From: Thiorhodovibrio litoralis
Lineage (GTDB): Bacteria > Pseudomonadota > Gammaproteobacteria > Chromatiales > Chromatiaceae
Length of the DNA stretch: 64,000 bases
Assembly (NCBI RefSeq): GCF_033954455.1
Contig: NZ_CP121473.1
Span: forward strand, 1 to 64,000
Direction: 5' to 3'
The number at the start of each line of letters is the position of its first letter. The first letter of the stretch is position 1. The notes under the pieces were generated by a model. That model worked only from the letters and a program-made list of their open reading frames with translations, did not search any database and was not told the DNA's origin. Shown here piece by piece: positions 1-12,169 of the stretch. The position numbers and the translations under genes are program-made.

Positions 1-942
1 ATGCAAATCGCGGCTAACCCCGGTGGCGCCTATAACCCACTGTTTATTTATGGCGGCGTTGGTCTTGGTAAAACGCACCTGATGCAAGCCGTTGGAAACA
101 CAATTCTTGAACGTAACGGTGGTGCTTCCATTGTTTATGTACATTCTGAACGATTTGTGTCTGACATGATTAAGGCGTTACAACACAATCGGATGGATGA
201 TTTTAAGGCAAGGTATCGATCTGTTAACGCGCTTTTGATCGACGACGTGCAATTTTTCGCGGGAAAGGACCGATCACAGGAAGAATTTTTTCATACGTTT
301 AACGCACTTTTCGAGAGCGGACAACAAATCATTCTCTCGAGTGATCGCTTTCCAAAGGAGGTCAGTGGCCTGGAAGAACGGCTTCGCTCACGTTTCGGTT
401 GGGGGCTGACGGTTGCGATCGAACCGCCCGATTTGGAAACCCGCGTGGCGATTTTGCAGAGCAAGGCGAACTTGTTCCGGATCGAGCTACCTGAGGAAGT
501 CGCGTTTTTTGTCGCCAAGCGATTGCGCTCGAATGTGCGAGAGCTCGAAGGAGCCCTGCGGCGGCTTGGCGCGAACTCGAGCTTTACCGGCGTAGAGATC
601 AATCTCGAGTTCGCCAAAACGGCGCTGCACGACATGCTGATCGCGCAGGATAAGCAAGTCACCATCGACAATATTCAGAAGACTGTAGCCGGATATTACA
701 AAATCCGTACCTCGGATTTGTTATCGGCGAAACGCACCCGGTCTATCGCCCGCCCGCGACAGATGGCGATGGCCCTGGCGAAAGAACTCACGAAGAACAG
801 CCTGCCAGAGATCGGCAAGTCCTTCGGCGGGCGCGACCACAGCACTGTGATTCATGCGAACAAAAAGGTGCAGGAGCTGCGAAGCTCAGATCCTCTGGTC
901 GATGAAGACTATAAGAACCTGTTGAGAACTCTAACGGGTTAA
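1..942 (+). CDS. dnaA: Chromosomal replication initiator DnaA (5' end outside window)
   Basis: DnaA binds DnaA boxes at the origin and opens the duplex. The visible 313 residues carry the AAA+ Walker A motif GGVGLGKTH (about residue 18), Walker B LLIDDVQF, the arginine-finger region SRFGWGL, and the C-terminal DNA-binding signature [11 protein letters not shown]. The protein aligns with E. coli DnaA from just before [10 protein letters not shown] to the end, so the ATG at position 1 is an internal codon. Domains I and II lie to the left of the window. The gene is followed by dnaN, recF and gyrB, the usual gammaproteobacterial order. Its TAA stop abuts a perfect inverted DnaA box. Confidence 0.97.
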
Positions 943-1121: not shown

Positions 1122-2231
1122 ATGAAGATAGAAGTTCAGCGCGAAGACTTGCTGCCGGCCTTGACCAGTGTCGCAGCAGTGGTCGAGCGGCGCCAAACCT
1201 TACCAATTCTAAGTAACTTGCTGGTGCAGACGACGGATGAGGGATTCGTGCTGACGGCGACTGATCTAGAATTGCAAATTTCTTGCAACATAAAGGGGAA
1301 GGTCGAAGAGCCAGGAGCCATCACCCTGCCGGCAAAGAAGTTTGCTGACCTGTGCAAGGCGCTACCGGAGAAAGGGCTGATCACGATAGAAATCGGACAA
1401 AGTCGCGCGAGTATCCGTAGCGGTCGAAGTCGATTTGCCCTCAGCACCTTACCGGCCGAGGACTATCCGCGTCTTGAAGGGGAAACGACGGAGCTGTGGT
1501 TTGAAATTGAAACGGCTGTTCTCGTCAGAATGCTGGAGCGAACAAGTTTCGCGATGGCACACCAGGATGTCCGTTACTACCTAAATGGCCTTCTACTGGA
1601 GATCAGTACCGGTAAGTTGGTGACGGTTGCGACAGATGGACACCGTCTCGCGAAGTCCGAAGCAACGCTGTCAAGTCTCGACACTTGGGAAAATACCAAG
1701 CAACTTATTCTGCCTGCAAAGTCGGTCGCTGAATTGAAACGACTGATGAGTGGTAGGGGGGGGCAACAGACCCGTCTAGAGATCGGCGATCGATCGGTGG
1801 TTATTCGTGTCGGTGAGAATGTCGTCACGACAAAATTGATTGATGGTCGCTATCCGGATTATGGCCGTGTGATTCCCAGTCAGCTTGAGCATTCGGCGAT
1901 GGTGGAACGGGATCTTCTACGCGAAGCCCTGGCGCGCACTGCAGTTCTGTCGTACGAGAAGCAAAAAGGGGTGCGGATGACTTTCGAGGAGGGGAACCTG
2001 CGCCTGGAAGTGAGCAATCCAGAGCATGAGGAAGCGCGCGAGGACATCGGCATTGATTATGACGGAGAAACAACGACAATCGGGTTCAACGTCGGATATT
2101 GGCTCGATGTGCTAAATGTCGTTGATGGAAAAGAGATAGAAATGAAATTTCTGGATTCGGAGGTCAGTGCAATTTTGAGTGATCCAGATTCGCCGGGAGA
2201 GCTATACGTCGTAATGCCGATGCGGATTTAG
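1122..2231 (+). CDS. dnaN: DNA polymerase III beta sliding clamp
   Basis: DnaN forms the ring-shaped dimeric clamp that tethers DNA polymerases and other partners to DNA. The 369 residues match the family length (366 in E. coli). The start MKIEVQREDLLPAL, the LPILSNLLV segment and the C-terminal end YVVMPMRI are typical of the three-domain clamp; the last residues help form the hydrophobic pocket that binds clamp-binding motifs. The ATG at 1122 is the only start that gives the conserved N terminus, though the preceding AAAAAG is a weak ribosome-binding site. The gene lies 179 bases after dnaA and 71 before recF. Confidence 0.97.
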   Translation: MKIEVQREDLLPALTSVAAVVERRQTLPILSNLLVQTTDEGFVLTATDLELQISCNIKGKVEEPGAITLPAKKFADLCKALPEKGLITIEIGQSRASIRSGRSRFALSTLPAEDYPRLEGETTELWFEIETAVLVRMLERTSFAMAHQDVRYYLNGLLLEISTGKLVTVATDGHRLAKSEATLSSLDTWENTKQLILPAKSVAELKRLMSGRGGQQTRLEIGDRSVVIRVGENVVTTKLIDGRYPDYGRVIPSQLEHSAMVERDLLREALARTAVLSYEKQKGVRMTFEEGNLRLEVSNPEHEEAREDIGIDYDGETTTIGFNVGYWLDVLNVVDGKEIEMKFLDSEVSAILSDPDSPGELYVVMPMRI

Positions 2232-2302
2232 ACCTGAGTCTAGAGTATGGATCGGCGGGAACGTGGTGAGTCAAAGAGAGCTGGTTAGCCCCGCGTTTGG
2301 CT

Positions 2303-3340
2303 ATGGTTATACGCAGGCTACAAGCGGAGGGGGTTCGAAATCTCGCAGCCTTTGACGTTGAAGTCGATGAACGACTTAATGTTGTTACTGGCGGTAACGG
2401 TGCTGGAAAAACAAGTCTCCTGGAATCAATCTATTTCCTAAACCGAGGGAATACCTTCCGTGGGAGAAAAGCCGGGCCTATGTACCGTCGCGGTTGTCAG
2501 AGGTGCTTTGTCAGGGCCTTTGGAGTGACGGAGTCCGGTTCTCCATGGAGCGGTAGGCGCAGTTGTGGCGGGTTTGACCAAAAGGATGGGGGCGAAGGGA
2601 AAGAGAAGGGTGGGGCGGCAAACCAACTGATGGTGCGTTTAGTTGGTGATTCCGTCTATGCGCTCGTAGAGGGGCGACCGGAGTTGCGGCGCCGGTTTAT
2701 CGACTGGAACTTGTTCCACGTGGAACATAATTACGGCGATCTGTTTCGCGAATATCGTCGAACGTCCGAACAACGTAACGCATGGCTTCGCTCGGCGGCA
2801 ACGGGTTTCCCTGTTTGGGATGAGCCTTACGCTCGCTTAAGTCGTGAGATCGACGGAAAGCGAGCCAGTTTTTGCCTGCTTCTGGATAACGCCCTCAGTG
2901 GAGCTTCTGATGACGGCGGAATGCCTAGTGGGAAACTTGGGGTCCGGTGGTCGAGTGGCTTCTCAAGTGAGACTCTCTCGGCTGATTTAGCACGCATGCT
3001 GCCAGGAGATCGTAAGCGTGGCTTCACCTTTCTAGGGCCTGATCGCGGAGATTTCCATCTTGAAGTAGCTGGAGAACCCGGCCTCGGATCGCGCGGTGAA
3101 AACAAGCTGAGGGCTGTCATGCTGCAGATTGCAGCAAGCCAAATCGTGGCTAACGACCAGCTAGGGGACCTCTGGCTCATTGATGATCTTGGAGCGGATT
3201 TGAGTAGAGATAACTCTCAACGGCTCCTTGACCTTATCCGCGGCGTCTCCAGACAAATGTTTATAACGGCAATTGAAAATCCTGGCATGACCGGCGGAAA
3301 GATGTTCCACGTGGAACAAGGACAGATCCAAAGCCTCTGA
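2303..3340 (+). CDS. recF: DNA replication and repair protein RecF
   Basis: RecF is an SMC-like ATPase that helps load RecA at single-strand gaps with RecO and RecR. The Walker A motif GGNGAGKTS lies near residue 32, a signature SRGENKL in the C-terminal half, and Walker B DLWLIDDLGADLS follows it. The conserved motif LFHVEH lies mid-protein and MFHVEQGQI near the C terminus. I chose the ATG at 2303, which gives MVIRRLQAEGVRNL like relatives; a TTG two codons upstream (2297) is the alternative. Residues about 60-105 form a poorly conserved Gly/Lys-rich insertion. Both FHVE motifs are encoded by perfect parS palindromes. Confidence 0.93.
   Translation: MVIRRLQAEGVRNLAAFDVEVDERLNVVTGGNGAGKTSLLESIYFLNRGNTFRGRKAGPMYRRGCQRCFVRAFGVTESGSPWSGRRSCGGFDQKDGGEGKEKGGAANQLMVRLVGDSVYALVEGRPELRRRFIDWNLFHVEHNYGDLFREYRRTSEQRNAWLRSAATGFPVWDEPYARLSREIDGKRASFCLLLDNALSGASDDGGMPSGKLGVRWSSGFSSETLSADLARMLPGDRKRGFTFLGPDRGDFHLEVAGEPGLGSRGENKLRAVMLQIAASQIVANDQLGDLWLIDDLGADLSRDNSQRLLDLIRGVSRQMFITAIENPGMTGGKMFHVEQGQIQSL
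2712..2727. promoter_or_regulatory. parS site 1 (ParB-binding palindrome)
   Basis: TGTTCCACGTGGAACA is a perfect 16-bp palindrome matching the chromosomal parS sequence bound by ParB in many bacteria. It lies inside recF and encodes the conserved FHVE of the motif LFHVEH. ParB would nucleate and spread from here to organise and segregate the origin region. ParA and ParB are not in this window. Confidence 0.85.
3303..3318. promoter_or_regulatory. parS site 2 (ParB-binding palindrome)
   Basis: This is a second, identical 16-bp palindrome TGTTCCACGTGGAACA, 591 bases after the first. It encodes the conserved C-terminal RecF motif MFHVEQ. Two identical perfect copies within one gene close to dnaA make chance unlikely. 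Confidence 0.85.
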
Positions 3341-3418: not shown

Positions 3419-5860
<2,442 letters not shown>

Positions 5861-11512: not shown

Positions 11513-12169
11513 TTACAAAAATCCATGGCGAGCGAGAACCTCCTTGTTCAAGCTGCTGCCTTCGACCGAGCGCCCTGATTGGCCAAGAATCAGACGTTCA
11601 AGATAGCGTGCGATCAGATCCACCTCGATATTGACGGGGGTTCCCTTGCGGTAATTCGCGATGGTAGTGACCTCACGGGTGTGCGGAACGATGTTGAGCA
11701 AAAAAACGCTCCCGGTGATGTCGTTGACGGTCAGACTGATTCCGTCGACTGCAATCGAGCCCTTGCGCGCGATATAGGGCGCGAGCTCTCCGGGTGCGTG
11801 AATTTGCAGTCTGAGAGAACGCGCTTCCTCACGTAAATCGAGCAGCGTCCCGACCCCGTCGACATGACCGCTGAGGAGATGACCGCCAAGGGGTGACGAT
11901 AGCGTCAGTGCCCGCTCAAGGTTGACTGGACTTCCCTCTGGCAGCTCCCCGAGAGTGGTCAATCCCAAAGTTTCTTGCGAGACATCAGCACGGAAGCCAT
12001 CACCTACAAGACTGACGACCGTCAGGCAGACCCCGTTGACGGAGATGCTGTCGCCTACCCCGGTGTGGGAAAGATCCAGCTCCGGGCACTGTATTGTCAG
12101 GCGAGAATCACCCGCGACTTTCTCGATGCGGGCGAGGCGCCCACGGGCTTGAACAATACCGGTAAACAT
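11513..12169 (-). CDS. ribE: Riboflavin synthase alpha chain
   Basis: Riboflavin synthase dismutates two lumazine molecules into riboflavin. The 218 residues from the ATG at 12169 begin MFTGIVQARGRLARIE and show the two tandem barrel repeats, each with a short GDSISVNGVCLTV or GSIAVDGISLTVN block. A further ATG six codons upstream is less family-like. It is the first gene of the ribE-ribBA-ribH-nusB-thiL cluster; ribD is absent here. I looked for an FMN riboswitch in the upstream spacer and saw none. Confidence 0.95.
   Translation of the reverse strand: MFTGIVQARGRLARIEKVAGDSRLTIQCPELDLSHTGVGDSISVNGVCLTVVSLVGDGFRADVSQETLGLTTLGELPEGSPVNLERALTLSSPLGGHLLSGHVDGVGTLLDLREEARSLRLQIHAPGELAPYIARKGSIAVDGISLTVNDITGSVFLLNIVPHTREVTTIANYRKGTPVNIEVDLIARYLERLILGQSGRSVEGSSLNKEVLARHGFL

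Follow-up and report, generated by a model that had tools for sequence, protein, structure and literature searches.

Two parS words within recF of Thiorhodovibrio litoralis, probably the chromosomal centromere and kept by selection on the DNA word

The recF gene of Thiorhodovibrio litoralis contains two identical copies of a 16-bp palindrome, each read in frame as the peptide FHVE, and the two words are very probably the chromosome's own parS centromere sites. Taken as a whole, the data are best explained, in our judgement with little room for doubt, by the words being the chromosome's parS, written into recF and held there by selection on the DNA word.

Two predicted parS sites in the dnaN-gyrB slot

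We analyzed a stretch of 64,000 nucleotides (the window), with the gene order dnaA-dnaN-recF-gyrB:

1..942, forward strand: dnaA, 3′ part (contig start within the gene; TIGR00362 positions 128-437)
1122..2231, forward strand: dnaN, upstream flank of the parS-recF slot (TIGR00663)
2297..3340, forward strand: recF, carrier of both words (347 codons from TTG; NCBIfam TIGR00611, 235.5 bits, cut-off 172, E 8.8e-70)
2712..2727, no strand assigned: parS site 1 (predicted), perfect palindrome TGTTCCACGTGGAACA, exact match, within the LFHVEH codons of RecF
3303..3318, no strand assigned: parS site 2 (predicted), the same 16-mer TGTTCCACGTGGAACA, exact match, in the MFHVEQ codons near the RecF C terminus
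3455..5860, forward strand: gyrB, downstream flank of the parS-recF slot (TIGR01059)

The true start of recF may lie a few codons after the TTG at 2297. The initial annotation had described one exact 16-mer at both places, spelling FHVE each time, with a spacing of 591 bp inside one gene near dnaA. A word scan recovered both coordinates; both words are in frame (TTG TTC CAC GTG GAA CAT, or LFHVEH, at site 1, and ATG TTC CAC GTG GAA CAA, or MFHVEQ, at site 2), and the two 16-mers are 591 bp apart, start to start. Both are perfect copies of the 16-bp palindromic parS consensus. In the whole genome (one contig of 5,466,623 bases), exact copies of TGTTCCACGTGGAACA are found only at these two recF positions, with no scatter; near-copies are limited to one site with one mismatch (at 2,250,611) and one with two mismatches (at 3,348,849), and the reversed control word is absent from the genome at up to two mismatches. 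Shuffled windows gave an expectation of 0.01 matches at up to two mismatches, and two matches were seen in 0 of 100 shuffles. Both exact copies lie within 2.4 kb of the dnaA end (the distance being taken to dnaA) in a genome of 5.47 Mb. A chromosomal parB is present: the genome has a single ParB-family match (TIGR00180, 194.7 bits, cut-off 58.45; G000:C1:642273-642782). In contig coordinates this only match is 642 kb from dnaA, unlike in P. aeruginosa, where parB is adjacent.

A similar arrangement has been published for P. aeruginosa. There, the parS sites closest to oriC are in recF (PMC3909081), and parS1 and parS2 are both placed in this gene (PMC5521831). ParB ChIP-seq defined parS as TGTTCCACGTGGAACM, in four copies, and found ParB on parS1-4 in vivo; parS is regarded there as the place at which the segregating force acts (PMC5098823). 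In strain PAO1 the two recF sites have the same word as here, about 4 kb from oriC (parS2 is TGTTCCACGTGGAACA, and parS1 has one end mismatch), and one of the four bound sites is enough for segregation (PMC3909081, PMC5521831, PMC4368675, PMC5098823). When parS sites were recoded, with the protein designed to be unchanged, ParB binding was 2- to 10-fold lower at almost all sites tested (all but parS5), and mutation of all four oriC-proximal sites gave a strain with a parS-null phenotype, like parA or parB nulls (PMC4368675). The two species differ in that P. aeruginosa has strong parS3 and parS4 sites near PA0011 and PA0013, whereas here the recF pair comprises the only exact copies, and in that parAB is about 7 kb from oriC in P. 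aeruginosa, in contrast to the 642 kb between parB and dnaA here. Since the P. aeruginosa recF pair is already published, the bare arrangement is not new; the literature that we searched, mostly at abstract level and apart from the likeliest place (the Livny et al. 2007 survey), yielded no statement of a class-wide rule or of the overlap with codons. The suggestion that the pair would form a “compact ParB loading platform” agrees, by analogy, with the P. aeruginosa work (PMC4368675, PMC5098823). With chromosomal parS of ParABS systems in general, the T. litoralis words have in common the 16-bp palindrome, the few copies, the location near dnaA and the presence of parB, whereas a recF-borne parS was not seen in the other classes of the phylum that were sampled.

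Two genomes of the same genus were compared with the window. The window RecF shares 54% identity with that of the first (G001; L007), compared with 78% for DnaN and 91% for GyrB (first 426 residues), and recF is broken in the second (G002), so recF evolves fast in this genus. In both genomes another parS core lies some 9 kb past recF (G001:C1:12671 and G002:C1:11841), and the window has no counterpart of it at up to two mismatches of its own word.

The core word across Gammaproteobacteria

We counted the core word, GTTYCACGTGRAAC, in 184 genomes drawn across the class (more than 140 families, completeness floor 90%; the sample contains no close E. coli relative, the best RecF identity being 43%). 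The core is present in 156 of the 184 genomes, with 332 sites in total (12 of them from one genome), and 114 genomes have exactly two; the control, the core read backwards, was found in 7 genomes, a single time in each. The core word is not universal, since 28 of the 184 genomes lack it though a ParB-family gene is found in 176. We could read recF in 150 of these genomes: 101 have the core at both aligned positions, 31 at one (site 1 only in 21, site 2 only in 10) and 18 at neither, and among these 18, six have paired variant words (see below) and the rest do not. In the same 150 genomes, 236 of 292 cores genome-wide are inside recF, and in 101 of the 139 genomes with any core all cores are confined to this gene.

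With further relatives added and duplicates removed, the recF set comprises 175 genes: 122 contain both cores, 23 only site 1, 10 only site 2, and 20 neither at the aligned columns (including L166 and L183, the latter from G002, which have a core in the open reading frame off these columns). The spacing of the cores across the recF set is 465-669 bp, 621 and 615 being the commonest values. The window recF has in-frame parS words at both FHVE positions, and the conservation of FHVE in relatives that had been proposed from the window holds across the set, with FHV[EK] at site 1 in 149 of 175 genes and at site 2 in 139. Some recF genes without the C-terminal word (L022, L119, and L122) have a core about 20 bp or less past the open frame. 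Other individual genomes depart from the common pattern: two drafts (G148 and G149, 90 and 95% complete) have cores and no parB that we could find, G095 has a recF without sites and parS elsewhere, and in G126 and G033 parS is elsewhere and recF was not found (for G033, the search used only the window protein).

Constraint on the DNA word and on the peptide

FHVE might be a RecF protein motif needed for repair, with the palindrome as a by-product of favoured codons; its conservation at two places would fit, and so would the persistence of F, and often H, in RecF proteins without parS (CFHNEP, VFHSES). The codon choice, however, is far from the usage of the same genes. At site 1, among 149 FHV[EK] genes, the H codon is CAC in 147 (63 expected on the codon usage of these genes), the V codon GTG in 147 (48 expected), and the E/K codon GAA or AAA in all 149 (79 expected); at site 2, among 139 such genes, the counts are 136 (59 expected), 136 (46 expected), and 139 (75 expected), respectively, so that CAC, GTG, and RAA are nearly fixed where FHV[EK] occurs. 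Bases flanking the four codons are fixed too, while the residues vary: the codon before FHV[EK] ends in G in 287 of 288 cases (149/149 at site 1, 138/139 at site 2), and the codon after it starts with C in 288 of 288 (149/149 and 139/139). Despite the fixed G, the preceding residue at site 1 is V, L, M, A, T or S, and at site 2 it is of eleven different kinds; over both sites, A, E, I, K, L, M, Q, R, S, T, V, and W are found before the motif and H, L, P, Q, and R after it. The initial annotation had asked how variable the synonymous sites are here, and the FHVE codons turn out to show the most constrained synonymous choice in recF: in a codon-bias score over 178 RecF columns, the seven highest columns fall within the two sites (z 10.1-17.1), and the best column elsewhere reaches 8.0. 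No other 16-nt window of recF is as informative as these two (23.8 and 20.7 bits, compared with 20.1 for Walker A). In addition, full-length RecF proteins without FHVE exist (L043, L070, and L089).

Six genomes (G119, G057, G182, G196, G036, and G064) have variant words that are paired within recF. For example, G119 has GTTTCATATGAAAC at both sites (peptide FHMK), G057 has GTTCCACATGGAAC at both (FHME), G182 has GTTCCACGTAGAAC at both, and G196 has GTTCCATGTGGAAC at both. Under a looser pattern, GTTYYAYRTRRAAC, the recF pair makes up both genome matches in G057, G182, and G196 and two of the four in G119, and the reversed control of this pattern gives 0 or 1 match per genome in these four. In G036 (L136), one site has GTTTCACATGAAAC and the other its reverse complement, GTTTCATGTGAAAC, which is the same DNA word spelling different peptides (FHMK and FHVK; 2/2 matches), and in G064 the two recF words differ by one base (2/2 matches). 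The paired FHM variants track the changed DNA word, a pattern that would be predicted by a DNA-binding site and not by a protein motif. We also aligned 20 ParB proteins from 21 loci (the G078 stretch gave no ParB), three of them from paired-variant genomes (G119, G057, and G182). The ParB of G057 (L296) has GLSR where most aligned ParBs have G[RK]SR, possibly a specificity change, but G182 has the usual residue, and we make no claim of a ParB residue that tracks the variant word.

The word also occupies this slot in genomes that lack recF. No recF open reading frame was read in 34 class genomes, of which 17 contain cores; we examined 16 (G136, with two cores and a weaker recF match, was left out). 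The parS sites adjoin gyrB in 15 of the 16: they are between the DnaN and GyrB matches in 13 and just upstream of gyrB in two (dnaN not found in the stretch), the exception being G126. One genome, G106, has a third core outside the dnaN-gyrB gap. In G135 (L195), twelve tandem parS cores with a 43-bp period (1287-1773) precede gyrB, with no strong recF match; in G208 (L189), parS sites at 1501 and 2223, 722 bp apart, are in a dnaN-gyrB gap of about 880 bp, and no recF remnant was recognized between them. Of the two sites, a shortened, frameshifted recF remnant in G002 retains only site 2 (KVFHVEQGRI in one of the frames); the second core of this genome is the one at 11,841.

The codons, the slots without recF, the paired variants, and the G002 remnant all display a selective constraint on the DNA word that is independent of coding, which indicates, at the level of sequence comparison, that it is the DNA word, and not the peptide it spells, that evolution maintains. 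A protein-only origin of FHVE was rejected on the codon statistics and the flanking bases, and we regard the protein-motif explanation as very improbable. Since F, and in many cases H, is retained by RecF proteins that no longer have parS, the protein seems to contribute something. The earlier proposal that word and peptide may each constrain the other stands strongly in one direction, from DNA onto protein; the protein side seems limited to keeping F and often H.

Lineages without the sites, and the origin and probable role of the pair

We added recF genes from 56 genomes hand-picked from 299 (recF over the cut-off in 49). Three families, f152, f153, and f155, are called Pasteurellaceae-, Enterobacteriaceae-, and Vibrionaceae-like here from their RecF identity to E. 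coli (52-56, 74-95, and 56-58%, respectively) and parS counts. The core is absent from all 12 Enterobacteriaceae-like recF genes (11 f153 genomes and E. coli K-12) and from the three Pasteurellaceae-like ones; both families are reported to be without par genes (PMC3909081, PMC4368675). The Enterobacteriaceae-like recF is the same gene, with the aligned positions still recognizable (CFHNEP; MFTVEK, MFRVEQ), but it lacks the core, some genes being one base away at site 2 (e.g., ATGTTCCGCGTGGAACAG). None of six Vibrionaceae-like recF genes has the core, although the same genomes have cores elsewhere; site 1 is lost in all six, and site 2 is one base off (TGTTYCATGTGGAACA). In V. cholerae, the reported distance of parS from oriC is 63-69 kb (PMC5098823). 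In G189, where parB was not found, both recF sites have decayed, and the same-genus G060 has two cores in recF. The other added in-class recF genes (n=19) have both cores in 13 cases, one in three, and none in three.

The word might instead be another type of site that resembles parS, e.g., an operator or RNA element of the dnaN-recF-gyrB region, as it is located there, and in the dnaN-gyrB gap even without recF. We think this less probable still than a protein motif: the same word was defined as parS by P. aeruginosa ParB ChIP-seq (PMC5098823), it is missing from the recF of the 11 Enterobacteriaceae-like and three Pasteurellaceae-like genomes, whose families are reported as lacking par genes (PMC3909081, PMC4368675), and it is decayed in G189 and intact in G060. 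The identity of the two 16-mers in the T. litoralis genome might suggest chance or recent copying of one word to a second place, but this is the least credible explanation, chance being ruled out by the shuffled windows, the genome-wide count and the class-wide counts against the backwards word, and recent copying by the occupancy of both positions in 122 of 175 recF genes, in a sample across more than 140 families. On the three points that the initial annotation had named as able to overturn its parS assignment, the copies are unscattered, parB is present, and the FHVE codons are highly constrained; its assignment of the words to parS is supported.

In other classes of the phylum, the core is absent from all ten recF genes sampled, and 30 stretches of roughly 3 kb around parS (the 26 listed come from other classes) showed no RecF-like open reading frame. 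On a RecF tree (FastTree only, 224 rows, sites masked, L183 of G002 left out), parsimony at gain costs of 1-2 gives one to two gains per site, with 27-29 losses of site 1 and 36-37 of site 2; at a gain cost of 3, both sites are placed at the root instead of being gained. Given the lack of the core in the sampled recF genes of other classes, and these gains and losses, recF probably gained the pair close to the base of the Gammaproteobacteria.

Returning to parS as the preferred reading, we infer from P. aeruginosa that ParB binds the two words in T. litoralis and that they act in segregation: ParB would nucleate on each word and spread over recF and its neighbours, and ParA would move the ParB-parS complex, so that the newly copied origin separates early. 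Probably recF took up the two words at the base of the class or close to it, in the frame that spells (L/M/V)-F-H-V-(E/K)-(H/Q/P); as this frame would spell a peptide tolerated by RecF at both places, recF could host the site. Selection on the DNA word would then hold the bases, and the peptide with them. Where ParABS is lost, word and peptide would decay, the loss being the presumed cause of the decay; where recF is lost, parS would be kept or re-formed in the same dnaN-gyrB slot.

More broadly, we consider it likely, with less assurance than for the parS reading itself, that the recF parS pair is the ancestral centromere of Gammaproteobacteria, that the two “conserved motifs” of RecF are a DNA motif read in frame, with the protein following the word even when the word changes, and that recF may stay in the dnaN-gyrB slot partly as a centromere carrier. 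The recF words are a clear, class-spread case of a protein motif that owes its conservation to an overlapping DNA element. Gene loss, co-varying site pairs, and lineages reported without a partition system serve as natural controls, and the case cautions against taking FHVE of RecF as a functional protein motif. The variant words, with CATATG, CACATG, and CACGTA centres, offer material for testing natural changes of ParB specificity. Sequence alone points to the likely centromere in many Gammaproteobacteria, and in T. litoralis the probable centromere of the 5.47-Mb chromosome is the pair of words at 2712 and 3303.
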